DNA of 64,000 bases from Serendipita indica DSM 11827 (Eukaryota > Basidiomycota > Agaricomycetes > Sebacinales > Serendipitaceae), in contig CAJVGD010000014.1 of NCBI GenBank assembly GCA_910890315.1, forward strand, positions 558,001 to 622,000. Direction: 5' to 3'. The notes under the pieces were generated by a model. That model was given only the letters and a program-made list of their open reading frames with translations. It did not search any database and was not told the DNA's origin. This document shows, one piece after another, positions 8,091-45,398 of this stretch (positions are counted from its first letter, which is position 1; each line of letters opens with the position of its first letter). Made by a program: the position numbers and the translations under genes.

Positions 8091-10729
8091 TCAGCGACGC
8101 CTTCTTCCAGTTTCATCCTCATCGTCATGTTCCCATTCATGGTCTTCGTCGTCCCCTCGTATTGGTCGCCGCGAAATTGCCTCGGGAGTAGCATCCGTGC
8201 TGGCATCTCGACTAAGCTCCCTGGCCGACGCCACAGGGACGTTGTGGTTATCGTTGGAAGCTGAATTATACCACTGCACGGTCAGTTTACCGAGTCCTTC
8301 GATGGACGGTGGACCTCCTCTCAAAGCCTGATACGAGTTAGTAGATGATATCGCTATGCTAACGCCCTTACCAGTTCAGCCAAAGCTCTCGAGCTGAATG
8401 TGACAACGAGTCCACCAGAGTCAGCTTTTTGAACGTCTTCAGCTTGACCGCTCGGCTATCTGCGCATGAGCACAAAGTAATCAAGACATAAGTAACGTAC
8501 CAAATAGAAACTTTGTGCCATCTCCAGAGCAAGATCATCCGTTACACCTGCTTCATCGTACCCTTGTAGGAGCAGCTTCTTTGTCCGGTTGTCCAGCGAT
8601 GCATTCGCCAGTGCAAACGCGCCGCGTCCTCGCCCCCTTCCACGCACGCGATATCCACCTCGCCATCCACGTCCACGACTACTTGCACCACGATATCCAT
8701 ACGATGGCTGCCCTTCCTGCTCCTGGTCAACAGCAGTAGGATCCAGGCCACGTTCTGCGGCAAGCTCTTGTAGACGGGCAAGAGCCTGTTGAGCTTCCTC
8801 TTGTGTCATCTGACCAGCGCCGCTAGCAAGCATATCCAAATCCAAGTCGAGGGCATCCTTGGAGGACGACGGCTCCGTCTTAGCTGTTGGGGCGGGCGTT
8901 GCGGGTGGTGGTTGAGGCTTCTGAGATTTGAGAACCTTGAACTTTGCCTTGGCTTCCATCTTTTCGGCCTCTGTCGCCGTGCTTGACTGTAGTACGTCCA
9001 TAACGGCCTTCATCTTGTCCATCCACACCCGCTGAGCATACTCAAAAACCTCTTGCGGTGACATTTGTGTCGCCTTTTGCTGTGTATTTGCTCCTGAATG
9101 AGATGATGATGGATATCCGCCTGTAGGCTTTGGATATGTCGATCCAGATGCGGTGGATGTTGATGTGTCTTGCATCTGTACATCCTCCGCCCCATTCGCG
9201 ACCGCATTGAGCTTTTGAACCTGTGACGCGCTAGCCTCAAGAGCCTTTTGACCAGCGACCCCTCTTCCTGGGGCCGGTCGATGCCAAAACACGACGACGA
9301 AGCGGTTTCCGAAAATGGCTTCTTCAGATTTCCATGCCGCATGGGCCTCTTGGTGGGTAGCAAAGGATACGAGAGCACGGTTCCCTCGCGTGTCCAGCCC
9401 AACGTTTGTCACCGTTCCAAACTTGCCAAAGTATGCTGTCAAGTCTGGGATGTTGACCTTTTCGGGTGGTAGTTTTTCTACGACGATTGTCACGGCGTTG
9501 GGATCGACCACATTGTTGCGGTGACTTCGTTCAGGACGCGTCCCCCTGCCTCGACCACCGCCCCGAGACGGTCCACGCTCATGACGAGGGAATTGCATCG
9601 GTTGCTGTTGCCCTGTTGCAGAGTCTGCGTTCCCATTTTGTCCCCCATCCGTCATCATAGCGTCCTCACTTTGTGAGGGGCCCCATTCTGTCGATGCTGT
9701 TGGCCTCTCGGAGTCAGGTCTTGGATCCCAGAATCATTCATTGGGGGTTGATTTGGGAAGACTGGCATTCCGTTGAAAGGGCCATTCATGCCAAAGCCGG
9801 GGCCGAACATTCCTGGATGAAAGCCTGGGGGAAAGAGCCCGTTTAGCATTTGAAGGGCAATTGCTGGGTTCATGTTCGGTGGAAAAGGCAGGGGCATCCC
9901 TCCAGGCATTCCATTTGGGAAACCCATGGGCGTTCCATTCGACATCACCGCGTCTTCGCCATGATAGTATGGGCAACTTGGTCCTACGTTACAGTAGCCG
10001 ATTTCTGCGATAGATTGAGCTGGCTGTATCACTGTCAAGGTTGAGCACGCACCATAATAATTACGACACTTTTCGGGGCGTTGGTCAGCCCTTGGTCCTG
10101 TCGGAGGAGTCCTGCGAAAACGAGACGAGGAGCTTAGTCCGTCCGACTGGGTCCCATCAGCCTGTCCTTGTTCAGAATTGCGGTCCGGCGGTTTTTGGCT
10201 GTGGCTTCTGGGGCCATCGGGTGGTTTACGTCCTCTTCGCTCGTCATGGAGACGAGGGCCTTTTGGTGGGCCTCTTAGCTCACGCTCTTGGACTTTCTCC
10301 TGCTCGTCTTGTTCCAGCCCGCGTTTCCTGCCTCGTGAGTGTGGAGTTGGGCCAGATGTTGTAGTATAAGGAAGATACGACTTGGATCGTAGTGTAGAGA
10401 GTAGTCTATCTACGAATGGTGCTGATTCTGGATATGGTGACTGATTAGCCCGCTTTTCTTGCCATTCGGTCACAATGCACACACCTTTTTGCAGGAAATC
10501 GGCGAGTTCTTCAACAAGACGAGGTCTTACATCCTTTTCCGGGTCATTGTTCCACATAGACAATAGTTCTATAATGTATTTGGCGAGGGCACCCGGGTCG
10601 GCGTCAGAGCTAGAGAGAACGCGTTTAATAGCAGCCCAACGACGATATGACAAATACTTGCATTGCGTCCAAATTCTTCTCGAGCCATGTTGTGAGCACG
10701 CCCGCGTCCTTGGTGTCATACAGTCCCAT
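8091..10729 (-). CDS. rmn1: RBM26/RBM27-like PWI-CCCH-RRM protein (Rmn1 homologue)
   Basis: Nuclear RNA-decay factor. RBM26/27 (Rmn1 in fission yeast) belongs to the MTREC/PAXT network that feeds transcripts to the exosome. Exons in reading order: 10662..10729, 10053..10609, 9670..10004, 8501..9604, 8372..8455, 8091..8327. Frames close to 794 residues. Seen in order: a PWI-like N-terminal helical domain (LDAISDADPGALAKYI), an Arg/Pro-rich stretch, a canonical C-x8-C-x5-C-x3-H finger assembled across an intron, a Met/Pro/Gly-rich segment, an RRM (AVTIVVEKLPPE), RGG repeats, and a second degenerate RRM ending LTVQWYN. The first intron (10610..10661) has a GC donor, GCAAGT; no GT site restores the PWI frame. 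The gene is divergent from the OSH3 gene. Domain order matches the family well. Confidence 0.9.
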
Positions 10730-10794
10730 CAACGTCTGGTTCAAGCTTGGATCACCACCACGGCGGCAGACTGCTGCCAGAGCCGCAAAGAATC
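10730..10794. promoter_or_regulatory. Bidirectional promoter/5' region of rmn1 and OSH3
   Basis: Only 65 bases separate the two divergent start codons, so the 5' leaders must overlap or be very short and the genes probably share control elements. No TATA-like box is evident. Confidence 0.5.
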
Positions 10795-13389
10795 ATGTCT
10801 GAAATCCTTAAACCAGCATCATCTTTGGGTAGCATCATCACTTCAATGCCAACCGCACTCTCCATTGCGCCAAATGCGGCCACAGAGCCTATGGATATCG
10901 TTCAGGAGGGTAATAGGGTCTTCAACAGTGGCATACGCACTCTGCTCATTATAACCACGCAGGATGGCTGCTCAAGAAGAAGCGAAAGAAACTTCAAGGT
11001 GCCTCTGGCCCAAGGATGGGGCGGAACTGTGCTCATTTCTTGCAGGCTATGCTCGGAGATACTTTACACTAACATCTAATGGAATACTTTCCTATTCATT
11101 ACGACAAGGAGACGAGATCCGGGACCAACTTCATCTCATCAACGCCGTGTTCAGTTCTTCGCCTTCGCAGCGATCCATTCACGTCGATTCTGGTATCTCT
11201 ACATTTCATCTTCGTGCCCTTACGGAAACGGATTATGAGAAATGGATGTCTGCACTGCGGTATGTTTTCTCTTGTGAAGTGCTCTTCTTCGGAAATGGAT
11301 ATCCTACAGGCAGTTCATTACCATGCCTCGACCGATGAGTGCCATGGATGGCACTTTGCGACATTCGACAAATTATGCCCGGACTGTCAACTTTTCCATT
11401 GGCCATGCGACAAAGATGAACGCACTACTAGATGATATGGAAAAGGTGAAGTGCATAGTTCGTGTGGTCAATACTAACATGAGCTTAGACACTCCACGAT
11501 CTCCAAGATGCTGCGCAAGCACTTCATGATCAAAGCGTTGCCTCTGTGCGCAGCAAACGTGAACATCCAAAAGAGGGGTCGAAAGAGGCCGGGTTCCTTG
11601 GAATATTTGGAAAGCCAAAGGGTGAGTGACATTTCGTATTCTCGCTCGTTGTTGATCTCGACAGTGTCCAAGCCCAAGCCGGCGGAGGAACATGAGGATA
11701 CTGGGTCCGTCAAGAGCTCTAACAAGCCACGGGAATCAGAAGAGCACATTCCGCAATCCCTTCCTGGGATTTTGACTGGTCTTGCGCGGCTGCAACGACA
11801 GCATACTCAAGTCGTTGGAACGTTCAACGCGCTCCTTCATCTGGATAGCCTCACGAGCCCAGTGAGGGCAACCTCACCTCCTCCTGTGCATCCAGAATGG
11901 GTGTCGGTCCGTGTGCCGAGTCGAGCAGGGACGACAAGGAGGACCATGTCCGTAGGAACGACGAGTGACGAGAGTGTGCAATGGTTCGATGCAGACGATG
12001 GACCTGAAGAGTATGTTCTAGAAGAACCAGAGGCAGAGAACGAGGTAGAGGACGCAAAGATGCAGATTGTTTCGGACAGCGAGACTGAAGAGGATAAACC
12101 GCCACCACCGCAATCTTCAGGGGACGAGGAAATCGTACCAGTGAAGCCACCAATTAAACGACGAACTCGTCTACCGGCGCCGGTCACCGGCGACGAGTTG
12201 TCGCTTTTGGGCGTCTTGCGCAAGAACGTGGGCAAGGTATGCGGTATAGCTACCCGGTCGACCAAGCTGACTTTGTTGCAGGATCTTAGTCAGATCACCA
12301 TGCCTATTGGATTCAATGAGCCCATTTCCATCTTACAGCGTCTGGCCGAAGATCTCGAGTACAGCGAGTTGCTCGACCAAGCTGTGGCCACCGACGACCC
12401 GATCGAACGAATGTGTCTCGTTGGCGCATTTGCCGTGTCTGGTTATGCGTGCACACGTCTGCGTGCTGCACGGAAGCCGTCTAACCCAATGCTGGGCGAG
12501 ACGTTTGAGGACTCGCGGTTCAACTTTATTGCGGAAAAGGTTTCGCACAATCCACCCGTCATGGCATGTCATGCCAGTGGTTCTGGATGGACATATGACG
12601 CTGTCACGCAGGCTAAGCAGAAATTCTGGGGACGATCGTTGGAAATCATCCCAATGGGAACAACGCGGCTAAAGATTCTCGATGACGTCTATTCATGGTA
12701 CGCATTTCTCTCCCTCGTCTATGAATGGATCATTGACACCTAGATGTAGGCAGAAGCCGTCATCGTTTATGCGCAACATTGTCGCAGGTACAAAATACCT
12801 CGAGCATGTTGGACCGATGAAGATTATCAACGAGACTACGGGTGCCCGCTGCGAGATTGAGTTTAAAGAGAGCGGAATGTGGGGGTCGGCAAACGTCGTC
12901 AACGCAGCTGTTTATTTGAAACCACACTCGACGCATGTCGATGCCAAACTCGAAGGCAAATGGCATGAATCGCTCGCGCGTATCATGTCGCGCAACCACT
13001 TTGAAGTCGTCTGGCGCGCACACGATCTCCCACCGTACGCGCCAGAGTATTACGGGTTTACGTATTTCGCCATGACGCTCAACGAGCTCACGGACGATTT
13101 AAAGGTGTTGGACGCAGAGGGCATATGGGATGGTCAAACATATGTCCTGCCCGTGACGGATTCTCGATTCCGGCCCGATCAAAGGGCACTGGAAGAGGGT
13201 AGATTGGATGAAGCGGATGATTTGAAGATCAAGGTAGAAGAGATGCAGCGTGCGCGACGTAGGACTGGTAACGAGGTCCAGCCTCGATGGTTTCGCAAAG
13301 TCGGCGAAGAAGATACCGCATGGGAATATGCGGGTGGATATTGGGAGATGCGGGAAGAAGGATGGGGCAAGCAAGAGGCGTTGTGGTGA
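10795..13389 (+). CDS. OSH3: Oxysterol-binding protein, OSH3-type (PH + ORD)
   Basis: Lipid-exchange protein of membrane contact sites. Exons: 10795..10909, 10963..10998, 11046..11259, 11310..11445, 11489..11621, 11665..12236, 12282..12697, 12750..13389; 753 residues. An N-terminal PH domain is rebuilt across three exons (GWLLKKKRKKLQG, then YARRYFTL). A helical and acidic linker follows, then the ORD (LQRLAEDLEYSELLDQA near 12340). The family fingerprint EQVSHHPP reads EKVSHNPP here (near 12540): the second of two adjacent histidines, which in yeast Osh4 contact the PI4P head group, is asparagine. The intron at 12237-12281 is 45 nt without a stop; I remove it because the family reads GKDLS there. 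No ankyrin repeats or FFAT-like motif were noticed. Confidence 0.93.
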
Positions 13390-13902
13390 TTGTGATCTAG
13401 CTGTCAAGCCCTCGGGGCGATTAAATCTCTGGCCGTGGTCGTAAAGTCCACCAGACCGTCCAAGCATCCAGAAAGGATGTCAGAAAGGCCTTTTCACCTG
13501 TATTTAGACCTCCTGCGCTGCTGCCTATCGAGATGGCATAGCCACCTCGTCCCGACAGGACAAATGGGTGCCCTCCTTGCGTGTTTGGACGCTTTGTGCG
13601 CCAAATCTTACGCAAAAACTCCTTGGAGATACACATTGGAGTACTTGTGATAGCAGCGTGGGACAAGAACACAACAGATGAGATGACGTTTTTTGGACTA
13701 GGGCTGTCCAGCAAAACAGAGAAAAAACGCCCGAAGAGTGAGTTTCAAGAACGCTAGTCTCTCCCTCGGTTCCAGCTCAGGTCCAGAGAGAGCAGCTTCC
13801 TCGTTCACGAGGGCCAGGAAAGCGGACTGGGATGCCTGAGGTCCGAAGGGGATCCTCGCGTCCTCTCAACGCATCCGAGTGTAACAACACGAAGAAAAGC
13901 GC
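13390..13902. other. Intergenic region between convergent genes
   Basis: 513 bases between the OSH3 and MMTAG2-like stop codons. A 97-codon minus-strand frame (13421..13714) begins with ATG but has no recognisable domain and no partner exons, so it is not called. Probably two 3' UTRs. Confidence 0.5.
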
Positions 13903-15333: not shown

Positions 15334-18300
15334 ATGGGTAAAGCCCAGCCTGTCGCCGTCAATGGCGTTCCTCCAGTCCTCAAGCGCAACATGGTGAGAG
15401 CAGGTTCATCAACTTTTAATACAAGGTCGACTCACATAGTTTCCGAAAGGCATGCCATCAGTGTCGAAAGCGCAAGCTTGCAAGTCGTCTCAAACTAGAC
15501 TACAATCCCAGTTTTCTAATCTAATCTCTCTAGAAATGCGACGCACAACGTCCTTGTTCGACTTGCAAACGCTCACATGCAAACGCGCTCGCCACCCAGA
15601 TGCCTGGCACAGATGTGCCCCCAGAGCCCGTGTGCACCTACGACGAGCTTCCAGAGCCAAAGGATCATGTCGAGAGAATGCCAGGAGATGGAGGCACCCG
15701 CGGCAGATACGAGCGGCTCGAGTCCCGCATTGGTGTGTCTCTACTCTACACGCTCGCTGCCATGCTTGCTTGCTCATAATCTACACATAGCTGAACTCGA
15801 AGCTCAACTCCGTGAACGAGAACAGCTGGACGCGTACACCTCACTCCGGGCACAGCTCAGTCCCCTTGGCCGGCTCTCCATCTCGGATCCGTTTGACCAG
15901 CTGTACCAACAACAACAGCTACCCAATCTCCCCTTTGATTCCAATAATGTTCTTTGGCCCAATTGGCCCGAAAGACTACCAGCGCCTCCGCTCCTGCACA
16001 ACCTCGCAGAAACGTTCTTCTCGTGTCATCCGCACGCCACGAGGTTATTGCATCGACCGACGTTCATGGCGTCCCTTGCACTCCCGCCCAATCACGCAGA
16101 TTTCCCGGCGCTCAGTCTCCTTCATGCCATCTGCGCGCTCGCAAGTCTCTGGAGCCCGCTCGTTGAGCGCAGAGATGTCCAAAAAAGTCCACAAGAGGGC
16201 GATAGCCCGGTCGGGCGTGGCGATTGGTTCGGCGAATTACATGCACGATGGAGTCGAGAAGAAGAGGAAAAGAATGCGACTGAGGGCACCAGTGTCTTTC
16301 AGGGTTTGCAATGTCGGTACTTTTTCCCATTTCTACACTTTTGCGGTCAACTGAATCAAACTCACCGCAGCCATCGTCGTCCTGACCTGGTACTATTACG
16401 CTCACGCACGTTGGGTCGAGGTCTGGTTGTATACCTCCAAGGCACTCCGTTATGCCGTCCCAATGGGCCTTAACACGACACCCACGCACGGTCCCCTTTT
16501 GCGTTCGTGGACGATGCCTTCCATTCTGGGCCCGCCCAAGAATGCAATCGAGTCGGAGATGCGACGGACGACGTTTTGGCTCGCATACTGCTACGAACGA
16601 TGGCAGGCGGCATCCACAGGATGGGCAATGGGTCTTGACGACGAGGATATTTCCCAAGTCTTGCCACTCCCCCTTGTTGACTTTGAACAGGGTCTCTCTA
16701 TCCTGCCAGAACTGAGGCAGAGGATCTCGACGCCGCGCATGCTGACGCTGCACATCCCAGAGCAGACAGACGCGTTTACTCTCTATGTCAAGGGCACAAT
16801 CTTGTTCAGTAAGGTCAAAAACTTTAACATTCGTTTCAAGAGCAAGTACTATTACGCCGTTGCATCCAACTCGGCCCACGGGGAACGATTTGCACCTTTT
16901 GGAGGAATGACCCATCCACCACCACAACCGCAACAACAGGTAGCGCTTGCACAACATCAGCAACAACAGCAGATGGAACAGGCTCAGGATGATGTCAAGG
17001 GTGAAGGCACAGCATCACCCGATGGATCCTCGAACAAGGACTTGCCATATCTTAACACATCTTACCAATCTAATTCGACCTCTACTCCCTCTGGTGGATA
17101 CGGATTTGGCATGGCGATGGGTATGGGATCCAGCTTCAGCCCAATCGGCATGGGACCTGGTCCTGAGAGGATTGATCCCGAGATACGCCTAGTTTCCGTG
17201 CCGTGGACGGGCTCATCGAGGGATTCAGGACCAGTTTCCCAAAGAACCTGAGGGATCCAGTTGCTGGAGGACGCGTCAATTCAGAGCTTTACGTGGCCTG
17301 CTTGGTGCCGCATGTGTACGTCTTTTCTTTTCTTTGTTCCCATCTTCCTTCCATCTTTCATTTGTGTGGGTGGGGGTCACCTTAGGCTGGATCCATCCCG
17401 TCTTGCCACTTACCGCCGCCGACGCAAGGTCAAGTCACACGCTCGCTCCCACGACGTCGTCCTTGATCCCTCTTCGCACGGCAATTTCCATAATTTTCTC
17501 ACATCAATTTTGACTCACCGACGCTGACATTTTTTTTGGCTCCATCCGATCACCTCGCAAACCGTGCCCTGGCTCGACGCTTCTCTTGCCACCCTTGTCG
17601 TCCGTGTATCGACTGCGATCATCAACCGCATCAATACGGATGATGAACCAAAATTTCGGCATCATTGTGGCTGGGAATATTCGGTCTACAGTGCGACCAT
17701 TCTCCTCCACGACCCTCACGCCGACCCTGCTGCTCCAACGTGTCGGTCAGCGGAAAAGCTGCTCATTGCAGCACGTGCAATCCTGGACCTCGTCTCCATT
17801 CTTTGCGCCACGTCCTTTGACATTACGTTGCTCGACCCCGTCGCTTCGTTTGCGTGGTTCCTCGCCGCACGTGTCTTTGTTCGTTTCCTTCGTGCACGGC
17901 TCGATGGACGAAGACATGCTGAAGCGGTTGTGCTGAGAAAGGAACTCGAGGTGATTCGGATCGCGCTCAAGAGGATGGGAGAGCGCGTTCCCTTGGGATG
18001 TGAGTCCACCCTGCGCTCTTGTCTCCTGATACTGATGCATCAATATAGATCGACAGAGTAAAATGCTTGATGATCTCTTGGCGAGTGAAGTCGGCAATGC
18101 CCTCGACACGCCGGCTGCGCATGCATTTGCCTTTGCCAATACGTCGCCTGATGGACAAACGACCACTCTTCCTCTTTCAAATAATGTCAACGCATCGCCT
18201 TCAGGTGGATTCAGCGCGGACACTGCATCGCTGTATGTCGCTGCAACGGCAGGCCATCGTGGATCGTTTTCCGCGCCAAACGGACATGTGGATTTATCCA

Positions 18301-19098: not shown

Positions 19099-22000
19099 CT
19101 AAGATGCCTCACGACTTCGTCGCAAATCTGGTCGACGCTTGGTGAGCACATCAAACGCTTCGAATGCACTCCTAAGTGCCACCATGCCAAAGCTGCACTG
19201 CGCCGTGCGCCAATCCTGCTCATCGGCTCTCTTGCTCTCATTGTACCCAGTAGAGTGCAACATTGAGCAATACCAAGCACAGAGTGCGCGAGCGAACCAG
19301 TCTCGAAGCGGATCCTCACGGCAACCCTGGAATGCGTGACGGACTTGGTCGACGAGCATACCCGCAACGTCGCGTACTTTGGAGGCCATGTCGTCTCGTC
19401 GCTTGGTTTGCGAAGACGCTTGGAGGATAGTCCCCATGACTACTTCTTCCTCTGTCAACGGGGTACGACCGATCGTGTATATTCTGCGTATGCTCTTCAG
19501 CTCCCGAGCATATTCGTAAAATGTACGCATGACTCGCTCCTTGTGTACCAAGGCATCTTGAATCGAGGGGCAATATGGTCTGCCGATGAAGAGGAGTGCG
19601 TGAGTGATCGGGTGCTCGACAGGGTCAAAGGTTGGGTCATAAACAATTTTGTCGCGTTCTGGTACCTCGCGAATGTGTTTAATCATTCTGTAGAGTACGC
19701 CGAGCGCCTTGGGTGACTCGTAGTAGCTTGTCTGATCATCGAACCTGGTTTCCTTGTGCTGAAAATCAGGAGTATACGGAAAATAACGCTTTGGGAGATC
19801 CTGGAATGAGACAGGTTTGCCTGATTTTGCAAAGTCGACCTGTGAATCGTTAGGTCAGGGAATTGGAATGGGCCAGGGATACTAACAGCCTTCGAGTGTA
19901 ACTCGGCCAGTTTAAGGCACTTTGGGTCATGCAAACCCGAGTTTGATTGATCAGCTTGAATTATATCAGGATGCTTCATTATCATGCTATCTGCAAGTAC
20001 TGACCCAGTATGAGATGCTGGATGGCCACGAGGCCCATCTTGTCAGAGTTAATGTACTCTACCACAAAGTCGGCAATGTCTTCGATAGTCGTAGGGCGTT
20101 CCAGGGTCAGTGTATCTTCCACTTCATACGATGCTGGCGGTCCGACTTCTAGCTTGAAGTCGGGTTTCTCCGGAATGATTTGGAACAAGTCCTGTATTGG
20201 CATCAGCAACGTTTCTCTTTCCGTACGAATAAACATACACCGTCTACATCGCCTCCCCCAAGCATACTGGCTGGAGGTCGAGCCCCTACCCAACCATTAG
20301 AACCGAGACATTGGTTGATGCGATAATCACACCTTTACAAGAGAATACGACTGCGTTGACAACCGGATGGTTGTAGTAAACCGAGCCCCTTGGTGGGTGT
20401 TTGGCCTTGAATTTTTGGACTATGGCTGGTCAGCCAAGTTCACGAGGCCTGGCGCACGCACCGTCTCCTGGATGAATCGAGGGGCTGCGCGTGATGTAAA
20501 CGTATCCTGGCTTTTCTGGGAACCATTTAGGTTCCCTGTCGCGCTCCTGTTTGCAAACTACACGAGTCAGAAGTGGCGCCAATAGGAGGAAAGCCAACGA
20601 CATACTATAAACCTCGTCGGCCTCCAGTTCCATATGTACATCGGGCACGCCAACGAGCGAGCAGCCAAAAGGTACAGGAATGCGCGCCTTGTACTTGAGT
20701 TCGCGGTCAATGTGCGCCTTTGCAACATCCAGACAACGCAACCAAAAGTCGTTGAATGGATGATCGTATTCCTGGAGCTTTACACGCGTGACCTCATACT
20801 TCTCCAGACTCCGTAGGATACGCGGGAGGTCAAATGGCAGGCCAAGCCGTCTTGATTCAAAAAACTCGGCGGCGCCCTCATCGATGCTAAGGAGTGTGCT
20901 GTTCATTTTACTCTGTGCATTGACGAGGAGACGCTTGAACCAGTCAATCTGGACGCCAAGGTGCTCCAGAATAGCAATAAGCGGTCTTTCACGACATTGA
21001 GTAATGGTCGGGACGAAAATGCAAGCTGACCTGTTCAAAAAGAGTTTGAGTGGGTGATCAAACTTGAATGCAATGTGCAATCCGTAGTCTTTGCTCTTGA
21101 ACTTGACCATAGACCTGTGAAGGACGACCTTTCGTCCCTCGAGAGTGGGATTAATTCCAAGTACGCCTTTTGCGCCCCCTAGAATGCGAATCAACCAAGT
21201 GCAAATCGAATGTCGCCAAATTTTTCATACCCAGTCGAACCTGCGGACAGAGTTAGTAGGGTATGAGGCTATAAATGCGACTCGCCTGGAACACCGCCGG
21301 CGCAGGGATGGGCAATGGGTTCACCCCCGGGTTAAGAGCCCTCCATATCTCGTCTCGAACGGCAAGAGACATGCATCCATAGCCGTCTGTAAACTCTGTG
21401 GCCGTCTTTGGTCCATCAGACTTAGTAAACTTTGGATCCACCATAATGTCCTCCTTGATTTCCACTTCATCTTCTTTGAGCTCGATAGCAGGTTCGGTGG
21501 TCGAGAACGCCTGTGCGAGTCGGGCACCGAATTTGGCAGGTTGTTTCTCCAACTTGAACTCCGCGGTATCGCCACCTTTCTGCAGTTCAATGTCCATGAT
21601 AAGGTTTCGAATAATCTCTGCATTGACCTGGTTGTTGTAGCGGTCCCGAAATGGCGCAACAAACCACATCTGAATGCGGATTAGAATTTATATTGGCATG
21701 ACCGCCTACGTACTGAGTGCTCTCTGAGACCAGAATTGCTGTATGCGAGAAAGTCAAAGTGTCGGCCACCAATGTCAAAGCCGTTCTTTAGGAAATTGCC
21801 CACTCGCTCCCTGACGAATGAGGTTCCGTCCACGTCACGATCCCATCGTATTTGTAAACGCTCTTCGTCTGTAAAGTTGACTCTGAGGAAGTGTTCTGAG
21901 TGTTCGACATATCTGAACAGAAAAACGTCGTGAGTTTCTTGTAAATTGGGGGGGGAAGTGACGTGCCGTCGGATTACTCCATTGGACTGGCCGTGATGGG

Positions 22001-25283: not shown

Positions 25284-27971
25284 ATGGCAGAGGCTGGCAA
25301 GGGAACCGTCCCAGACCACTCTATTCGCATATGTGCAGATAGAGGGGGAACATTCTGTGACTTACACGCGTAAACATTCCTTTATAGCTTGTCTTCAAGC
25401 TCTCAACCTCGCAGATCTTATCCAGATCCTGAGGACAATAGTTCAAGGAGAGAATTTGTCGTGAAGCTCTGTAATCCACTTGCCTACAACTCAACCACCG
25501 CTGACTTCCCCCAGTATCGCAAGACCCTTCGAAGTATCGCGACGCGCCGACTGAAGGGATACGAAGGATACTCGAGAGAATAACTGGCGAGAAGATTGAG
25601 CGTGGTACCAAGCTGTGGGTACATCCTTGCTCTCCTCTGATATGACTAATCTGTAAACCCCCAGGCCGACCAACAAGATCGACTACATCAGATTATCTAC
25701 AACGGTGGCAACGAACGCTCTTCTTGAACGCAAGGGAAAGAAGCACGCATTACTGATTACAAAGGGCTTCAAGGACCTCTTGCTCATCGGGAACCAATCG
25801 CGGCCACGCATCTTCGACTTGAACATCAAGCGACCAGAACCCCTCTATTCAGACGTTGTTGAAGTAGACGAGCGCGTTACGCTTGTCGGGTATACTTCAG
25901 ATCCCGAAGCAATCGAACATGCAATCCAGTTTGACGATCACGGAAAGATTGTCAAAGAGTACTCTGGAGAGGCATCTGCTACTGCATATGACGGAAATCC
26001 AACCCCAGAAATCGTTCGTGGGCTAAGTGGAGAAGCGGTTCAGATTCTTCAAAAGCCAGACCTTCAGCAAGTGGAACGCGACCTTCGTCGGCTCTACGAT
26101 CAAGATTTTCGCTCAATCGCGGTCATTTTTGCACACTCTTACACATTTCCTGATCACGAAATCGCGGTGGGAAGGCTGGCGGAGAAGCTTGGATTCACCC
26201 AAGTCTCACTGTCATCCCAGCTCTTGCCAATGATCAAGATGCTGCCCCGTGGCGTGTCTTCCACGGCGGACGCGTATCTGACACCCATCCTTCGCGATTA
26301 CCTCGACGGGTTCTTTGCCGGGTTCGACGAGGAGTTGCGTGGTTCTGGCAAAGGTGCGCAACAAGGTCGCCATGCGCGTGTCGAATTTATGGGATCAGAT
26401 GGGGGGCTGCTGAATTTGGACAATTTCTCTGGTCTCAAGAGCATTTTGAGTGGTCCAGCTGGCGGCGTCGTTGGATATGCACTGACATCTTGGGATGAAA
26501 AGTCAAGGAAGCCGATCATTGGGTATGTACCACATTCAAATTGTGTTCTTTACCTGACAGTCATCAGTTTGGACGTCGGAGGCACTTCTACAGATGTGTC
26601 ACGGTACGCTGGTCGATATGAGGTTACGTATGAGACAACAACGGCAGGAATCTCGATCCAGTCACCTCAGCTGGATATCAACACTGTTGCCGCCGGAGGA
26701 GGGAGCTGTCTGACGTTTAGGAATGGCCTCTTCAGAGCTGGTCCTGAAAGTTCGGGTGCTCAACCTGGACCTGCATGCTACAGGCGAGCAGTAAACGGGT
26801 AAACCGGTCTCCTTTTGACATTCGAATAGAAAAGGCGGACCACTATCTTTAACGGATGCCAATCTGCTTCTAGGAAGGATCCTACCGGAATACTTTCCTA
26901 AAATCTTTGGAGAATCCGAGACAGAGCCGCTAGATGTCGAGGCTTCGAGGGAAAAGTTTCAGGCGCTTAGGGCCGATATCAATGCTCAATCCAAGAGCCA
27001 GCTTACGCTTGACGAGATTGTCTATGGGTACTAATTCATACTGCCTCGGGGTGTTCTCTGATCTTGTCCAGATTTATCAAAGTGGCAAACGAAACAATGT
27101 GCAGGCCCATACGGTACGCTACCTGGTCAGAAATAATCTAGTCCTAACACTCCACAGAGCTCTCACAGAGGCTAAAGGATACTCTACTGGAAATCATATG
27201 TACGTCGAGATCTAAGACACGCATGTTCTCTAATGAATTTCCAGACTGGCCACGTTTGGCGGAGCAGGAGGCCAGCATGCTTGCGAGATTGCTCGTCTTC
27301 TCGGTATCAAAGACGTTCTCATCCACCGATACTCGTCCATTCTCTCTGCCTATGGACTTTCTCTAGCAGACAGGGTGTATGAGATCCAGGAACCGTCATC
27401 CACTGTGTACGACGAGTCTACACGGGCATCCCTCATCAAAAGGCTAAATGAGATGGAAGCAAAGACGACAGAGGTACTCAGAGGCCAAGGGTTTGACGAG
27501 AACAAGATTCAAGCCGAACGATTCATGAACATGCGGTTTGACGGTACTGACACCTCGGTCATGATCCTAGATCCTTCCGATGGCAGTCATGACTTTGCAG
27601 CTGCGTTCAAGAAGCAGCACAAGGAAGAGTTTGGCTTCCTCCTCGAGGGCAAGGCGATCATGGTCGACGACCTGAAGGTGCGGGGGTTGGGCAAGACATT
27701 CGACACGCTGGGAGATACTGTGCACGAGGAGTTGAAGACACTGGATAGAAGAGAGGTGGACAAGGCAAAGCAGGCATGTACGCACAGCGTCTACTTTGAC
27801 GAGGTTGGGAGGGTGGATGATACACCGGTGTACGAGCTGCCGTCGCTCAGTATTGGAGATGTGGTGCAAGGACCGGCGATGATTATCGATGACACACAAA
27901 CCATTGTCGTCGTGCCAAAGGCTACAGCGACTGTGACGACGAGACACCTTGTAATCAACCTCCACAGCTAA
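25284..27971 (+). CDS. 5-oxoprolinase-like protein, HyuA half only
   Basis: 5-oxoprolinase hydrolyses 5-oxo-L-proline to glutamate with ATP in the gamma-glutamyl cycle. Exons: 25284..25369, 25415..25470, 25515..25614, 25665..26522, 26568..26783, 26830..27027, 27072..27113, 27158..27199, 27245..27971; 774 residues. Visible in order: the N-terminal hydantoinase/oxoprolinase region (ICADRGGTFCD, TTVATNALLERKG), the ATPase-type core (GLDVGGTSTDVSRYAG, VAAGGGSCLTFRNGLF, GGAGGQHACEIARLLGI), and the end of HyuA (VVPKATATVTTRHLVINL). Fungal 5-oxoprolinases normally continue into a HyuB half to about 1300 residues. Here a double stop (TAATAA) follows and no HyuB homology is found downstream. Intron 26784..26829 has a GC donor (GCGAGC). 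Confidence 0.9.
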
Positions 27972-32533: not shown

Positions 32534-34277
32534 ACACATCCTCGCCTTCCACCACCTCAAACGCCGCACAGAACATGTCCTTGTCCATCAGGATAAGACC
32601 CTTGCCATCCGGAGACCACCGGATCTCCTTGCATGCAAATCTTTTCTCGCTCGGCACGCTCACGCACTCTGCCAATTCGCCCTTCTGTCCACTCTCGTCC
32701 AATACACGATCGTCATTCCATAGATAAATGGCGGCGGTGCCTGTACACAGTGCGATCGTAGTTCCAGAGATTGTGGGTGAATGGCTGACTTGGGCGTGGA
32801 GGATATTCTGCGCACATTGGATCACTGATCTCAAGCGAGGTATACAAGGTTCTTCCGGCGAAGGAAAATTGTAAATGAATGCGAGTGTGGGGCATTGCTC
32901 CCATGTAACAAGTAGGAGCGCGCCGCTTGCGGAGAATTGCATGTGCGTGACACCAGATTTGGGCATCACAGAAGCGTTAGCAACGGATGCTGTCGGTGCC
33001 ATTGTTGAAGGTTTGGATATGCCAACGAAAAGTGGTGCAGTATTCGTTGCTGTTGTTTTGGTAAAGGGAAGAAATCCGCGATTCCGTGTATTGGCCAGCC
33101 AATTGTGGGGCTCTTTCCACTGTACCTATGGCCCTATAAGTATATCAAGACGAGTGGATGGTGCAACATGCCGTTGATGAAGGTAGTCGGGAGGCGAGCT
33201 GTATTGTAGCGACCACCTTCCATTCCAGGCTGCTAAGGATGTACAACTGAGAGGCGTTAGGTAGGATCCATTATTTTTTTGGTTGATACCTTTGAATCCC
33301 AGCCACCGACAAGGAGATATGTCCCGCTTGGATGCCACAGGATATGTCGGACCCCGAGCAAAGGATCATCTGTTGGAATAAACGTCGCAATATGTTGGCC
33401 CGTCAAGTTCATGATGACAACTTTAAACTTGAAATGGTTAGAAACGGCCATTTGCACAGTCTGTAGACCGACCTCTGATGCGGCCTCCCAGGCTGCGACA
33501 TGATTACCAGTAGGTGATAAGGATATTGAAGCAAGAGAGGTGGTAGGCAATGCAAAATGCTACCTCATGATGAGCCTTTGTATTGTTATGCAGGAGACCT
33601 ACCCTAATGAGCTTGTATCCGCTGGGGCAGTCGTAAACCCCCATCATATCTTTCGACTTGTACCTCTCCGCGAGGACAAAGTAACGGCCATCCTTACGAA
33701 ACGCATAGCCTGAATAAATCAGGACTGGCCTATCTCTTAGCAAAGAGCTTACCACGATCTGGATGTTTGGGGAACTGGATGTAGGTTGCAGTCCCTGTCG
33801 ACAGAGACCATATGGTCACTCGAAGCTACCTTTGACCTCTGAGTGGTTGATGACCGATTCAACGTTTGCACTCACTCCCCATTCAGAGAAACACAGTATA
33901 TTCCGGCTGTCTGGAGCCCATTCTGCCTTTGTTAAGCCCTCTACGCCTGCTTCGATTCTGGCTGTCCACTTTTCGTCACGCATGGAGAAGACGTGAACGA
34001 TACCGCGCTTTGCAACGGCGGCGAGTATGTATTCTGAATCGGGGCTCCATTCCGCATGAGTGATCCATCCCTCAGATGGTGCAGGTTTTACTGCGGCTTT
34101 CGCGAGTGCTGCATGCGTTGCGGATGGTGCATTGTCGACGAGCCATGTTTGGACGATTCCCTCGCGATCAGACCGTCGCACAACGAGTCTATCTTTGACG
34201 GCGGAGAGAATAAAGTATCTCCCAGGGCTGAAATGTACAATCCCAGCTGTCTGCGCAAAGAGGTCGGTAAAGTCCAT
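32523..34277 (-). CDS. WRAP73: WD40 protein WRAP73 (WDR8) homologue
   Basis: WRAP73 acts at spindle poles and microtubule-organising centres; in fission yeast Wdr8 works with a minus-end kinesin and Msd1. Exons in reading order: 33830..34277, 33753..33794, 33603..33709, 33473..33559, 33290..33427, 33172..33246, 32523..33125; 499 residues. Family landmarks: MDFTDLFAQTAGIVHFSPG, RLVVRR, THAEWSPDSEYILAA, YFVLAERYKSKD, WHPSGTYLLVGGWDSK, WKEPHNWLANTRNRG, and a final WSPDGKGLILMDKDMFCAAF. Intron 33126..33171 needs a GC donor (GCATGT) to link the SSLEWKVV and WKEPHNW blocks. Intron 33795..33829 is only 35 nt. The start is the first ATG that gives the family N-terminus; 51 bases separate it from the divergent VPS20 start. 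Confidence 0.92.
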
Positions 34278-35336: not shown

Positions 35337-36344
35337 ATGCCACGCGCAATCATTTCACCTTCCGTACTTGCTTCCGACTTTGGAAAGTTATCATCTGAAT
35401 GTCAAAGGATGATGGATGGGGGAGCAGAATGGCTACATATGGGCAAGTATTGACCGTTGTCGATGATTGATCTTGACGGGCGTCCTATAGATGTCATGGA
35501 TGGGTAGGCCTCAGTTCCTGAGCGAATTCTAGGATCTAAAATTACACAAAAAGTCACTTTGTACCAAATATTACTATGGGTATGTGACAATTTGCGAGGA
35601 TAGGCGAAACTGATTGACTCCCAAAGGGCCACCGATCCTCCAGTGCGTTCATAAGGGTGTCCCAGGAATCTTTATGGACTGTCATATGATGGTATCGGAT
35701 CCAGAAAAGGTCCGCCCATTTTGTCTCTATGTCGCCACTGCTGACGATGGCAGTGGGTAGACGATGTTGCGAAAGCAGGGGGAGGATTGTACTGCTTTCA
35801 CTACGAGGCTACTAGTGAGTACAAAACCGAGGAATCCAATATACTAATCTATCGCAGAGGACCCTCTCGCCCTCGTCAAGCAAATCAGGTCCGCAGGTAT
35901 GAAGGCTGGTATTGCTATATCACCGGATACACCTTCAAATGTTATTACGGATGAGATTGGAAATGCTGTCGACATGATCCTCGTCATGACTGTTCATCCC
36001 GGTCCGTAATCTCGGTTGTACGAGAGGCAAGGCTGAGCACGATATAGGACGTGGAGGACAAAAGTTTATCGAAGGGTGTGTACCCAAAGTCTCTGAGCTG
36101 CGTGCAAGATTTCCGCAGCAAAACATTGAAGTGGACGGAGGGGTCGGGCCAAAGACGGTCGATGTCTGTGCTAATGCGGGTATGTTATTCAATTTCATGA
36201 CATTTCAAATACTAAGAGAATGCAGGAAGCAACGTTATCGTCGCAGGGACGGCCATCTTTGGCGCGGAAGATCCGGAGGGGGTCATTCAACAGTTGAAAG
36301 CGAGCGTCGAGACTGCGCAGGCGAAGATTAGCAGACAGAATTAG
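35337..36344 (+). CDS. RPE1: Ribulose-phosphate 3-epimerase
   Basis: Interconverts ribulose 5-phosphate and xylulose 5-phosphate in the pentose phosphate pathway. Exons: 35337..35442, 35491..35503, 35554..35579, 35627..35709, 35754..35814, 35858..36001, 36048..36179, 36226..36344; 227 residues, the family length. Motifs: IISPSVLASDFGKL, the metal-site segment HMDVMDGHFVPN, DCHMMVSDPEKWVDD, MTVHPGRGGQKFI, EVDGGV and AGSNVIVAGTAIFG. The invariant DVMDG is spread over a 13-nt exon. The Asp codon is split by intron 35443..35490, whose donor is GCAAGT; the in-phase GT nearby would destroy the motif. The gene follows VPS20 by 94 bases on the same strand. Confidence 0.95.
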
Positions 36345-36540
36345 GAAGCTAAACGAGTTTTGTATTCTATTCCTTCGTCCGATCGGGCGGCTGGAACTAG
36401 GCGAGCGACACCAATTCTCCGCCTGACAGAGCCGAGCGGCGTAAATACCAGAGGCCCCAAGCAATAAAGCTCAGACTCTGTCCACGACAAACGGCCTTGC
36501 ATCACCCATCGCCAGAGAGATCCAGAGAATATACGGGATA

Positions 36541-38692: not shown

Positions 38693-39070
38693 TTTCTCGT
38701 GCAGCAAGACCTAGACTCGTTTAGATAGATTCCTGAAGTATAAGAAAACATTGAATGATACCGTGATTTGCACACAGAGGTCCTGACTGATTGGAGTGAA
38801 GCTTTGGGAGAAACAAAGCTCAGAGTATATTCCATGACAAGAAAGGGAAGTATACGTATCGTATTAACCTCGGTCATGACCCCGCGTGTGCTTGGTAAGA
38901 AACGCAGCGAAATCTCTATCACGAGAGGGAAAGTCATTGTATGCCACGGAGAAAGAGGATGATCGACGTAACCCCACGAATAATGTAAAAAGAAAACACA
39001 AGAATTACTGAAGACCTGTAAGATAGGTTAGTAAGGGACGAGGAAACCAGTGAATTCTGACCTGGTTCAA
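38693..39070. other. Intergenic region between convergent genes
   Basis: 378 bases between pyruvate kinase and the Tudor-domain gene. AT-rich, without a gene-like frame. Probably the two 3' UTRs. Confidence 0.5.
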
Positions 39071-39928: not shown

Positions 39929-40189
39929 TTTCTGGCGTGTTTAGCGTGATTTATGGAATTGGCTCAAAGGTGAAGTTGGGTTCAAGTTATGCACTCGAGT
40001 TTGGACGAGTTAACACGCAGGGCCAGACAGACGCGCTAAGCCACCAGAATTCCCGATTTGATTATATTATTTTGGACTGGGCTGCAAGCAGCACGTACAC
40101 GAGTGGCGCCCTAGGATGACGTCTCGAAACCAGCGGCCACTCCATCTTAGACCCAACCACGATACACTAGTAATTGCAGAATATCGCTA

Positions 40190-41141
40190 ATGGCAGCTAT
40201 TGGACGCGTCTACAACCAAGCTTTTGACCGCTCGCCTGCTGGGACACTCGCGGTCACCAACGGACTTTTATCAGGAGTCGCAGACATTGTAGCTCAAGGC
40301 TCTCAGATTGGTGTACGTGTATACAGTCTCTAGAAGTGCACCATGTCTGATGGTTCGCCTTGCTTTTACAATATTGAACATGGAACGACTTAACCTGCGC
40401 GCGTATACAAACCTACACGCACCCAGCTCGCTTATCGCGACGCAAAGAATGCACCTGAACCCAACCCGCTCACCGCTCCTCCCGCACCCGTGAGCATACC
40501 GGCCTATGACCCGGTGCGGACAGTCAGATTCATCGTCTTTGGCACCATAATGGGTCCAGCACTTGCAAGATGGAACCACTTTCTCGAGCACCGCTTTCCT
40601 CTACGCGTGTCATCCTCCAATGCGGCCAAAGGCGTCGTCGCCAATGTGAACAAGGCTGTCGGAGCTGGCTCGTCGTCTAGCCAAGGAAACGTGAGTATTA
40701 CAGCACTTGCAAAACGTGTGGGTATGGACCAAGCCATCATGGCTCCTTTTGGGGTGAGTACTTTTTCTCTCCTTGGCCCATAGCGACTTATTCACGTCCA
40801 TTCAGCTGTTTGTCTTCCTTGGATCCATGGGTGTAATGGAAGGACATTCCTCTGGTGCAATCAAGCAGAAATACATCGACCTCTATCCACCAGCCATCAA
40901 GGCAAACTGGACCGTCTGGCCCGTTATCCAGTTTGTCAACTTCCGCTTCATGCCGCTTCCGTACCGTGTCCCATTCCAGGCGACATGTGGTGTCTTCTGG
41001 ACGCTCTACCTCTCCCTCCTCAATTCCAGCAAGCCTACCATGGCAAAGGAAAGCGGGGAAGATCTCGTGCACGATGCCAAAGTCGCTGCAAAGAGACTCA
41101 AGGATGCGGAAGCCAGAGCAGAGAGAGCAGAGAGACGATAA
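40190..41141 (+). CDS. Mpv17/PMP22 family membrane protein
   Basis: Exons 40190..40312, 40427..40753 and 40806..41141; 261 residues. The family includes yeast Sym1 (mitochondrial inner membrane) and peroxisomal PMP22. Seen: an N-terminal YNQAFDRSPAGTLAVTNGLLSGVADIVAQ helix region, DPVRTVRF, the helix FIVFGTIMGPALARWNHFLE, DQAIMAPFGLFVFLGSMGVMEG, and the C-terminal signature NWTVWPVIQFVNFRFMPLPYR. A Ser/Gly/Ala-rich insertion (near 40610-40690) separates helices 2 and 3, and a charged helical tail (VAAKRLKDAEARAERAERR) extends the C-terminus beyond Sym1. The organelle cannot be decided from the sequence; no clear presequence is present. The first intron is 114 nt, long for this region. Confidence 0.92.
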
Positions 41142-41289
41142 TCACGACGATACATGGGCACTTACGTTTATCACTATTACACGATAATGACAATACTGTA
41201 GCATGCTCTTTAGAAGTGACTGCATCAAATTTATTCCCAAAAGGGGTTTAAGATATTACACGCATTAACAAGAAATCAGTGCCTCGGTT

Positions 41290-43076
41290 CTAGGACGGGC
41301 TTTCATGGTCCTTTGCGTGAGGATGCGTTACAGTGGCCTTAGTGGACTTCTATCACAGAGTCAGCCACAAGGCATACTCGAATCAAAGATTACTAACGGT
41401 ATTGAGATGCGTGAGGCGGTTGCGCAAAAGAGTAATCTCATGCTGAAATCGGACAATCGATGACTGCGGCCCAATTACTCAGTCGGTTTCTATACGCACA
41501 TAAAGTCACACCTTTGTGTCCTTCGCTCTGAGCTTTTGAATTGCTGGGGGAGAATTTGCTGCCAGTGACAGACCATTTGCCTTGAGCGTCTCATGGAGTT
41601 GATTACACTGTTGCTCGAGCGAGTTGATGTAGATTCTTCGCCGCTTCGACGCAGGCAATCTATTGCTAATCCTTTGTCAGACCACATATCAAGGCAAAGA
41701 GAGGAGCGTACTCTTCGGAAGTGAGAAACACCTGCTCGAATTTCGTGGGCCATGGTCGCCGCATGCACTCGTAATTATGGGCGCTAGAGCGAGGGGATGT
41801 CGGTCTGTCCACCTCGAGGGAAGCACTGGTGCCCATAGGTGAGTTGGCCGATATAGAACGTAAATTGTTCTCAACGATGGGTGGAGGCGCAGTTGGAGGA
41901 GTGTCGTGTCGAAACTCTTTTGTAGGGGAAGACGCTTTGGGCACGGTGCGTCGAGGAGAATTGGATGCAGCACCAGACATTGCTTGATCAAGATGATGAG
42001 GATGCAAGAAAGATTGAGACGGATTAGTCGAGCATTGAACAGAACTCAAAGCCGGTAGCCTCGGGAGCAAGGTTGCCGCAGTGTGATCCGAGGCCAGCTC
42101 CTCCTCCGAGGGAGTGTGTGCGGGTGGCGAGCGAGGTGAAATTGGACGAGGAATTGGATGGAGGATGGGAAGAGTGACTGGAGGAGGTTGCCAGCATTGA
42201 GAACGCTGCTCGACTGGGTTACTCCAAGAAAAGGTCGTCGCTATATAGCCAGTTCCATTATTTACCTGCTGGGGCGTTGGCGGCCTTAGGCGGGGGATTG
42301 GCGAATGGTGATGAAATGATGGAAGAGGTTGGCCAAAAGCGACATGGTGGGAACAATTTGAATATTGGGGCTGCTGGTGGACAGCAGACGTTGTCAGAAG
42401 TTGAGGTAAATGTCCAATGATGGAGGCATCCCCACGGCAATCGTGGAATTCCATCGAAGGGTGAACAAGATAAGGATACACCGGATGTGGTTGCGTCGGA
42501 GGGGGAGGTGCTGCATACATGGACTGCTCTTGTGCAAGAAATCGGGACTCGGCTGATGGTGGATTGATGACGACATGCTCGCATGCATTCTGAAGCAGCT
42601 CGGTACTACCAGAGTAAGCAGACATCGAACTTAGCGTCGAGGTGGACTCGTTGGTGCTTTCGGTGCTTATGGAGCCTGTTCTCGAGGGAGGTCCTTGGAG
42701 ACTGTCCTCAGAGTCGTTCCAGTAGGCGTAGGAATAGTTGCATGTCGTCGGATAGAAGCCCCCTTCAGTCGGTGGATCTGCAGCCAGTGTTGAGAGGGAT
42801 GGATAAGAATATTCAAAACGTGTGTTATAAGGCTGTTGGTGAGTCCAATATTGGTTGCGACGACCTGGCGGAACAATGCCATAGTCGTCCGCGCCGTGAG
42901 TGTTGGCCTGCATCTGATTGGTAACCCCCTGAACCTGGTAGCTCTTTATAGGGTCGAATAGAGGCGATGGTACGACGATGTATGGGTGTTGCTCGTGTGA
43001 TTCGTACTTGCCAGAAATTGGCTCTACGAGATGATCAATTACGGCGATATGAAAGTCACGGGAGCTCACCGGGCAT
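41290..43076 (-). CDS. Ser/Pro-rich protein with C-terminal coiled coil, possible regulator
   Basis: Exons in reading order: 43070..43076, 41712..43023, 41512..41659, 41398..41442, 41290..41349; 523 residues from the first in-frame ATG. The frame continues upstream of that ATG without another ATG, so an extra 5' exon is likely. The long exon is disordered and rich in Ser, Pro, His and Tyr. The C-terminal part is a basic-helical block, ELPASKRRRIYINSLEQQ, followed by heptad-like leucines (CNQLHETLKANGLSLA) and EITLLRNRLTHLNT. A basic stretch before a coiled coil suggests a DNA-binding dimer of bZIP/bHLH type, but no canonical signature of either is present, so this is only an inference. Confidence 0.65.
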
Positions 43077-43540
43077 AAGATCTTCAAGAAATCCTCGACC
43101 AGTCTCGAGACGGAGAGCGTCGAGACCAAGATGCACCCAGTCACGACTCGTAACGGCGCTGGGGCCAGACTGCGAGGTACAAGGAATACAAATCAAACGC
43201 TGGTGATTTTTCGAAAAGGTTGACAAGGATTCAACTGTCACCAGTCTCTTTAGGTTAGATTGATAAAGCTAGGACGCGGATACCGTCTCTGCGTGCTTGC
43301 TCACGCGGCGAGAGACGGCCATTAAACTCCATTGGCCCGGTATCAATAGCTTGAATATGTGTTTCGTTCCTGTATTAGAATCTTATTTTTTGCGTTTGTG
43401 TCCTAGTTGCAAGGTTCGATCGAGGCAGAGTCCAAGTCCGACGCAATTCGAGGTCAAACCCATCCTCGACCGTCACTTTGGTTAATCATTTATTGAACAC
43501 GACAACAGCAAGAAATAAAGCCTGGTCGGCGCGATACTCA
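43077..43540. promoter_or_regulatory. Divergent intergenic region
   Basis: 464 bases between the provisional start of the helical protein and the fucosyltransferase-like gene. An open minus-strand frame (43077..43241, VESLSTFSKNHQRLI onward) continues that gene's frame and may be part of an upstream exon. No other feature seen. Confidence 0.35.
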
Positions 43541-45398
43541 ATGTCCTCCGTCTACCTCCATCGCCGAACAGCAGCCGTCGTCGTCACCACCACTCTTGTT
43601 CTTGTCCTCTTTTACACTCTTTTCCATGCATCAAATAGGAATATTCAAGCTCCGCTCAGGTCGCTATGCATAAACTCGGGATTCTACGAGGGCTCTCTCG
43701 AGGAGCCACAGGGCGACATCCCAGACCTCAGCATCCCCGATGGCGCACTTTCGGCAGCAGAAGACCCTCAAATCCTCGCAGAAGTGTTCCCAGAACCGTT
43801 TCCATTCGCGGTCAATAAGCACAAATCTCTGAAAGGTGACCCAACCCCCCATTTCAGGGGTAAGTCTTCTCAGAATCCTTTATGTTCATTTTGTGACCGA
43901 AAAACTACAGATAACCTCCTACCAGACATAAAATATATCACTGGTTGGCATGATGGGGGATTCACGAACCAGTTTATGGCGATAACTAATCTCATCTATC
44001 TATCAACACTCCTTTCCCATATTCCCATTATACCAGGTTTCGTGGCACGTCCGCACGTCCCTGTTCAGGCTGGTTATCGAGCGGTGAGCGACGTATTTGA
44101 CGTCGACCGATGGGCTCGAGCGGTCGGCAAGGATATCCTCGAATGGAAAGATGTCAAGGATCTTCGGGGACTGCAAAATCGCCGCGCAGATGATGGTACC
44201 CTCGGTGCAGATGAAAGGGATGAGCTCGGCTGCTGGAGTACGTGGGCTGCAAGTAATTTACAGGAACATCGTCCACATGGGTCTAATTTTATCCTGGGCC
44301 AACTAAACATAGGCAAGTCCTCCCCTCTTCATCAATAAGATCGACCCTCGAGCATTCACTGTAGACGTATCCCATACTGCAGTTCCTCGTGCCGCACGGC
44401 TGTTCCAAATAGGCCGTGACGAAGACCTGCACTTGACATTTAGCGGCCTTGCAACGCTCGCGCAGAGCACTGCGGCCAAACCTAATCCGCTTTCCTCTGA
44501 AGAGCTCGGTGCCATCTATCCTGCACAGAAATCCGGACACAAGCGTCTACCAGACACGTAAGTTCTCTGTTTCGAGCTCCTATACTATCTCACGGGTTCA
44601 CATCAACCATGGGACTGGGAGCAACCATTCGGCGTTGCTTGGAACATTGTAGGCCGGCATGCGCGGTGGTCAGATCGCGTACGCAGTCTCACCAGGCGGG
44701 TACTAGCACTCACTCTTGGTCTCTCGGAATCTCAAATCCTGGCTCCATGGAGAGGTGACCATGACTGGGACGAACGCAAGGACGGCGTGCGCTACACAAC
44801 GTCTCGAGACTATTATGCCACACTCGACGAACGCGATCGCATTCTCACCCCATATATTCTTGTACATGCCCGCCATGGCGATTTCTTGAACAACTGTGAT
44901 AGTCGAAAGGCACAGGGCAAACCGTGCTCGCCTCCCCTATCCTCCATCGCACAGTATGTCAAGGAAGTTGAGGACGAGTTGAAGCAGAAGGGAATTATCA
45001 AGGAAGACCATGGCTGGTCCAAGGACAAAACGCCCGTCATCGTCACGAGCGACGAGGCCGATTCTGCATGGTGGAATCAAGTCAAGGCGCATGGTTGGAA
45101 GCGGGTCGTCTTTCCAAAGGAGCTTGAGCTCCCACCTGGTGTAAAGGGGAGAGAGGATGGATTGGATCCTGAGACGCACAAGAAGCTGTGGGATCGAATG
45201 TTCATCGAGGTCGCTATACAGGGGTTTGCTACTGGGTTTGTCGGTACTCAAGGCAGTACGATGAGTTTGGTAGCGCAACGGAGGGTCGAGCATTGGCAGG
45301 GTGGCGTCGCGAGGACAATGAGGTACGACTTTCAACTGCTCCAAGTAACATCTAATGTATCTTCTCAGCTTTTCTATCTGGCAAGAATGGGACTTATG
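43541..45398 (+). CDS. O-fucosyltransferase-like type II membrane protein, internal TAA
   Basis: Exons 43541..43859, 43911..44312, 44365..45322 and 45368..45398 form one frame of 569 codons. Codon 44559-44561 in it is TAA. A membrane anchor (TAAVVVTTTLVLVLFYTLF) follows MSSVYLHRR. Then come GGFTNQFMAITNLIYLSTLL and the block YILVHARHGDF, a pattern of GDP-fucose O-fucosyltransferase-like proteins, where an Arg in the H-x-R-x-G-D segment contacts the nucleotide. The C-terminal part has GFATGFVGTQGSTMS. Intron 44313..44364 needs a GC donor (GCAAGT). The TAA lies inside a perfect GTAAGT donor, yet the sequence right after it (CFELLYYLTGSHQPWDWEQP) reads as coding and I find no in-phase acceptor. 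Confidence 0.7.

Follow-up and report, generated by a model that had tools for sequence, protein, structure and literature searches.

A raised share of predicted GC-AG introns across the genome of Serendipita indica, probably offset by strong donor contexts

In fungi, introns that run from GC to AG make up 1.009% on average (PMC7072748). In a 64,000-nt stretch of the Serendipita indica genome (contig C14, positions 558001-622000; hereafter the window), however, a first-pass annotation listed eight such introns in seven genes and put their share at 7-8% of about 105 introns, against about 1% in fungi. This raises the question of whether GC donors are truly frequent here, whether they are confined to the window, and how they could be recognized by the splicing machinery. 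S. indica belongs to the Sebacinales (Basidiomycota) and is a partner of plant roots. The assembly used here comprises 24.7 Mb in 55 contigs; a nanopore assembly of the species was reported with 24.7 Mb, 57 contigs and 50.8% G+C (PMC8385953). The G+C content of the window is 51.2%. The species is also indicated by an exon on contig C16 (L050), in which 248 of 249 residues agree with the solved phosphate transporter 7sp5 of Piriformospora (Serendipita) indica, the single difference being the first residue, at the edge of an intron; cyclophilins, compared for the same purpose, pointed to other paralogues. On the evidence of sequence and homology, we think it quite likely that these are ordinary U2-type GC-AG introns, present genome-wide in S. 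indica at about 4% and compensated by a strong donor context.

Beyond the window, we included 165.8 kb of DNA (4 kb of which overlaps the window) and a set of small loci. Introns were called by a two-strand gene model written for this analysis, in which introns are explicit and are scored by terms for donor, branch site, acceptor and length. It was trained on 225.8 kb, consisting of C14:500001-650000 (including the window) and pieces of contigs C1, C2 and C4. In this DNA the self-trained gene finder described degenerate GT donors (GTGAGT, GTACGT, GTAAGT, GTATGT) and an intron length peak at 44-48 nt. For the GC rate, one dinucleotide at a time was allowed next to GT with a prior of 0.03, and the average over the 14 that are neither GT nor GC was subtracted as background. 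The rate was scored on 318 kb, namely the training DNA and 92.2 kb of small loci, from which calls at sites picked by a donor-like motif were removed and one duplicate (L026) was excluded. A free expectation-maximization estimate of all 16 donor frequencies was dropped, because it scattered about 290 extra introns over the other 14 dinucleotides.

At a posterior above 0.9, GC donors accounted for 3.9% of the introns (95% interval 2.4-5.9%), with 31 GC calls against a mean of 6.07 (maximum 10) per other dinucleotide and 607 GT calls. The share was 3.7% and 4.0% when the threshold was lowered to 0.8 and 0.5. Outside the window, it was 3.8%, 3.5% and 3.5% at the thresholds of 0.9, 0.8 and 0.5, respectively, the strictest of them yielding 25 GC calls against a mean of 5.43 (maximum 9) and 495 GT calls. 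The corresponding shares inside the window were 4.6%, 4.5% and 5.9%; here 6 GC calls stood against a mean of 0.64 (maximum 2) for the 14 other dinucleotides and 112 GT calls at 0.9, and 14 against 4.64 (maximum 9) and 149 GT calls at 0.5. Because the excess outside is similar, a local cluster was rejected, and the window is typical to slightly rich in GC introns. When the fungal mean of 1.0% is added to the background, the count outside the window exceeds expectation with P=9e-5, 7e-4 and 5e-3 at thresholds of 0.9, 0.8 and 0.5, respectively; with the 1.85% reported for Ganoderma lingzhi (PMC11590231) the values are P=0.0095, 0.028 and 0.054. The first-pass annotation had named a genome-wide fraction near 1% as the result that would speak against it, and the predicted introns outside the window gave 3.5-3.8%. 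Its figure of 7-8% nevertheless looks too high, because too few GT introns had entered the denominator; about 150 GT introns were called in the window and the estimate there is 4.5-5.9%. The contrast with other fungi should read about 4% against 1%.

When the 225.8 kb were scored with priors of 0.05 and 0.02, the mean background gave 3.7-4.4%. When the 15 non-GT dinucleotides shared an equal prior, 547 GT and 26 GC introns were called, compared to 75 for the other 14 combined (range 1-10). A flat prior on all 16 dinucleotides gave 12-17 GC calls above 0.9 at three prior levels, against a mean of 0.6-1.6; the resulting rates of 5.7-9.5% were used as a sign of excess and not as a rate, because the gene finder picks up GC introns in a strong context more easily than the average GT intron. 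Several results weigh against an estimate near 4%. If the largest other dinucleotide is taken as the background, the share becomes 0.7-3.8% (priors 0.05 and 0.02, 225.8 kb), and the 92-kb extra loci alone show a weak excess (P=0.045-0.12). At a posterior above 0.5, one other dinucleotide ties with GC in the larger blocks of added DNA beyond the window, and the pieces of C2 and C4 have 0 GC calls against 34 and 5 GT calls, respectively. The idea of the first-pass annotation that the lineage tolerates C at +2 is supported by the excess outside the window, but not in these two pieces. Counts by motif alone in 226 kb were without a clear GC excess: XXRAGT followed by a branch site occurred 8 times with GC and 33 times with GT, and the 14 others averaged 6.3; with G required at -1, GC occurred 4 times and GT twice, against an average of 1.4. 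Moreover, most of the scored DNA had also served for training, and the GT denominator probably holds false calls, the removal of which would raise the true GC share.

Protein homology provides a test that is specific to each call. For GC calls at a posterior above 0.5, the GC parse was compared with the GT-only parse of the same stretch by the gene finder. Five of the 27 calls had no GC parse and 22 gave protein pieces, of which 16 were tested (15 by Pfam and the WRAP73-like protein by PDB only). In 13 of these the match spans the junction and is informative; in MMS19 (twice) and one acetyltransferase the domain did not lie over it. As controls, we used 100 calls of other dinucleotides, of which 22 were listed and 10 tested; five were informative, one had its domain off the junction and four had no domain. 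The GC parse was favoured in 11 of the 13 informative calls, in which excision restores a conserved frame and protein, whereas the odd donor was favoured in none of the five controls, all of which prefer the GT-only parse (Fisher P=0.0025). Besides the introns of the window, the favourable calls were in an acetyl-CoA transporter (+19.1 bits), V-ATPase G (+9.5), Sir2 (+7.3) and a prohibitin. The last was counted for GC on the ungapped alignment of a solved prohibitin through the GC junction; the GT-only version, which was scored by Pfam only, is three residues shorter at the junction, so that an ungapped fit is impossible. In addition, a cyclophilin gene on contig C21 has two GC introns within an ungapped alignment to 4jcp (GC version only). 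There are also results in the other direction. Pfam Band_7 is 2.0 bits against GC in the prohibitin, homology refuted the calls in aconitase (-6.8 bits) and Pex12 (-29.9 bits), and a third call, at 1556-1597 of locus L045, was judged false by eye. Outside the window GC was favoured in just four of six informative calls, compared to none of the five controls.

The usual 5' end of the U1 small nuclear RNA (snRNA) is ACUUACCUG. Over the seven donor positions other than +2, GC donors match it at 5.31 positions on average and GT donors at 3.92 (13 GC and 160 GT donors, P=8e-5), and G is found at -1 in all 13 high-confidence GC donors. The GC donors are thus stricter than the GT donors, which is contrary to the relaxed U1 recognition proposed in the first-pass annotation. 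After background subtraction, the GC share rises from 0.1% at sites with 0-3 matches to 4.2% with 4, 12.4% with 5 and 39% with 6-7 matches, the last class consisting of 17 calls (7 GC and 10 GT). In a context-blind run with a flat prior, the upper classes rose likewise (1.4%, 6.8% and 39%), on tiny GC sums (1.9, 1.3 and 1.7). The trend was opposite in a context-blind run with a GC prior of 0.5 (2.69 matches for GC and 3.38 for GT), the 49 GC calls of which are taken to be mostly false positives. The genome search returned 24 places with the motif CAG/GYAAGTAT (the slash marks the exon end), 13 with C and 11 with T. Of the 13 GC sites, 7 scored as donors with equal GT and GC priors and 4 with a flat prior; of the 11 GT sites, 7 and 6 did so. 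The GC site L026 is a duplicate of L025. One of the motif loci, a TIMELESS gene, gained 8.0 bits with the GC intron; it was the only informative one of three GC loci scored by Pfam, the others giving -0.2 and -0.7 bits.

Two observations on donor sites may be added. Sites L025 (C6:843491) and L026 (C6:851802), about 8.3 kb apart, have one and the same sequence surrounding a CAG/GCAAGTAT donor of a gene for an MFS-like transporter, and this suggests a recent local duplication. Among high-confidence GT donors in the 225.8 kb, G at -1 is depleted together with AAGT at +3 to +6 (odds ratio 0.22; 0.24 in the context-blind run), which looks like an avoidance of near-perfect U1 sites in donors with T at +2. 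This is suggestive, but an anticorrelation between the exon and intron sides is already reported for mammalian donors (PMC4671708).

Because the GC share rises with the matches at the other positions, the introns appear to be ordinary introns of the major spliceosome that are compensated by their context. We infer that U1 reads this context and that the introns are spliced from the RNA. The U1 snRNA would pair with the donor as usual except for the lost pair at +2, and this loss would be offset by near-complete pairing at -2, -1, +3, +4, +5 and +6 (typically AG/GCAAGT); splicing of the intron would then proceed by way of an ordinary branch site and AG. A change of T to C at +2 would be near neutral in the strong donors of this lineage, so that GC would occupy about 39% of the sites with the best match and practically none of the weak ones. 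In a stronger version, which we regard as rather improbable, the +2 base would be nearly neutral in Serendipita at all donors that otherwise pair fully with U1, of which about four in ten are GC, possibly by way of an unseen change in the U1 snRNA or in factors that check this base. A role of the minor spliceosome was considered too. U12-type donors carry the motif RTATCCTT; none of the eight donors has it by inspection, and this candidate was rejected. U12 splicing has been reported as absent from Basidiomycota (PMC2846911).

Could the machinery itself be altered, such that a U1 snRNA with G facing +2, or a change in U1C or Prp8, reads GC and GT alike? It would fit that close to 40% of the best-matching sites are GC, and also that the Rfam searches found U6 (C1:741309-741413) but no U1 snRNA, neither in the whole genome at two thresholds nor among 24 loci with the U1 5'-end motif (13 and 11 loci). 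A gapped U1-like pattern matched 0 places in the genome, and the U1 snRNA may be strongly diverged. The Rfam search of the genome did not find 5.8S rRNA. However, the U1 structures of fungi have been described as extremely deviant (PMC3033335), and therefore the failure to find U1 means little. Furthermore, U6 has its ACAGAGA box, and U1C, which the first-pass annotation had proposed to inspect together with the U1 snRNA, is conserved and aligns to the human protein without gaps over its first 60 residues. The near lack of GC among weak donors also argues against a changed U1, since a factor equally able to read GC and GT would not be expected to leave them out. We therefore hold altered machinery to be unlikely.

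Compensation by context also has to be weighed against chance combined with model choice. Short introns are easily invented, and GC could have been picked where GT failed; the true rate would then be the 1% of other fungi. The gene finder indeed overcalls GC (68 calls at a prior of 0.05), and the homology tests refuted two individual calls. Nevertheless, none of the other 14 dinucleotides reaches the number of GC calls at a posterior above 0.9 under the same procedure, conserved-sequence scores improve for most informative GC calls and for none of the controls, and the probability of the excess outside the window under the fungal mean also speaks against chance, to which we assign a low likelihood. 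A still weaker candidate, and a very improbable one, is that the assembly, being nanopore-based, has C for T at these sites through sequencing or assembly errors. A published S. indica assembly of the same size was built from Nanopore reads, but it was polished with Illumina reads, with 5.46 Gb of MiSeq data reported (PMC8385953), and errors are not expected to follow the rest of the donor motif.

The introns are of a known kind, and it is their frequency that is unusual for a fungus of 51% G+C. Like other fungal U2-type GC-AG introns, they have the same termini, the lengths of their GT neighbours and a strong remaining donor consensus. The share of about 4%, however, is about four times the fungal mean, twice that of Ganoderma and 1.5 times that in basidiomycete alpha-amylase genes, for which 13 of 478 introns were reported as GC-AG (PMC3584928). 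A raised genome-wide share is common to S. indica and certain algae, in which GC-AG introns reach 39.6% (Aureococcus), 22.2% (Micromonas pusilla) and 7.7% (Chlorella) and have been attributed to high G+C (PMC3033335). Those genomes have about 66-70% G+C, compared to 51% in the window, and base composition therefore does not explain the GC share here; S. indica also stays below the algal level of at least about 8%, with an upper 95% bound of 5.9-6.0%. In humans, MAG/GCAAGT is reported as the active form among +2T>C variants and natural GC donors and is attributed to U1 complementarity (PMC12805630). The donors of S. indica match this compensation, but are natural and spread over the genome. The GA-AG introns of Eurytemora and Oikopleura, for which a U1 variant has been suggested (PMC7072748), are likewise a lineage-specific excess of non-GT donors, although the dinucleotide is another and no U1 was found in S. 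indica. Among the papers searched, none paired Serendipita with GC-AG.

If a share of about 4% is true, an annotation restricted to GT distorts conserved genes, such as those of the epimerase, prohibitin, V-ATPase G, Sir2, TIMELESS and a Zn2Cys6 factor, in a species that serves as a model plant symbiont. It would also represent a fungal case of raised GC-AG frequency without high G+C, which bears on the proposed tie of GC donors to base composition (PMC3033335). The genome would then offer numerous natural pairs in which a GT and a GC donor share their context, and if +2 is nearly neutral, these would form a natural test of how dispensable the +2 pair is.

All eight stretches listed in the first-pass annotation do read GC...AG on the coding strand with lengths of 45-54 nt. 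Seven are backed by gene finding and homology; the eighth, in a fucosyltransferase-like gene, is better placed elsewhere (Table 1). The gene finder hit seven of the eight coordinates exactly when GT and GC donors were allowed, and six when the 15 non-GT dinucleotides shared the same small prior; in the latter run a TC donor at 15485 replaced that at 15480, and 44313 was uncalled.

Table 1. Predicted GC-AG introns of the window, with homology scores (bits) of the GC and GT-only parses
Donor	Position	Strand	Gene and site	GC parse	GT-only parse	Difference	Remarks
GCAAGT	10610..10661	-	RBM26/27-like gene, within PWI domain (amino acid 23)	34.1 (PWI)	23.1	+11.0	GT-only parse also drops the N-terminus
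GCAAGT	15480..15533	+	Zn2Cys6 transcription factor, divides RKRKL/KCD	32.5 (PF00172)	no match		Junction reads CHQCRKRKL/KCD; upstream frame, wrong in the gene finder, was set by hand in the GC version and not in the GT-only version
GCGAGT	21241..21285	-	RdRP, amino acid 689	137.6	126.6	+11.0	Ungapped alignment to 7eu0
GCACGT	21913..21966	-	RdRP, amino acid 494	113.4	96.3	+17.1	Basis includes alignment to 7eu0
GCGAGC	26784..26829	+	5-oxoprolinase/hydantoinase, amino acid 424 in PGPACYRKGG	189.1	146.0	+43.1	
GCATGT	33126..33171	-	WRAP73-like WD40 protein, amino acid 295	29.3 (PDB 9qzc_i)	22.4	+6.9	2-residue gap just upstream
GCAAGT	35443..35490	+	Ribulose-phosphate 3-epimerase, amino acid 36 in LHMDVMDGHFVPN	129.9	95.4	+34.5	Ungapped to 3ovp; GT-only parse drops the N-terminus
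GCAAGT	44249..44312	+	Fucosyltransferase-like gene				Acceptor ACTAAACATAG; from the gene finder; replaces 44313-44364

The intron at 44249-44312 leaves the reading frame open. It is the least certain of the eight, because the fucosyltransferase-like gene has no Pfam domain to judge by; a PHROGs scan of its protein gave no match, and one gene-finder run called a weak GT alternative at 44242-44317. In this gene GCAAGT donors occur at both 44249 and 44313, 64 bases apart, such that the acceptor of one model abuts the donor of the other. At a prior of 0.05, additional GC candidates were called at 19484-19537 (minus strand) in the RdRP gene and at 36300-36344 (plus strand) in the epimerase gene, both at or past the end of the region aligned to PDB structures. 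Finally, the gene finder threaded 29 introns through 45569-49335, which suggests that this segment is non-coding or decayed sequence and not a gene.

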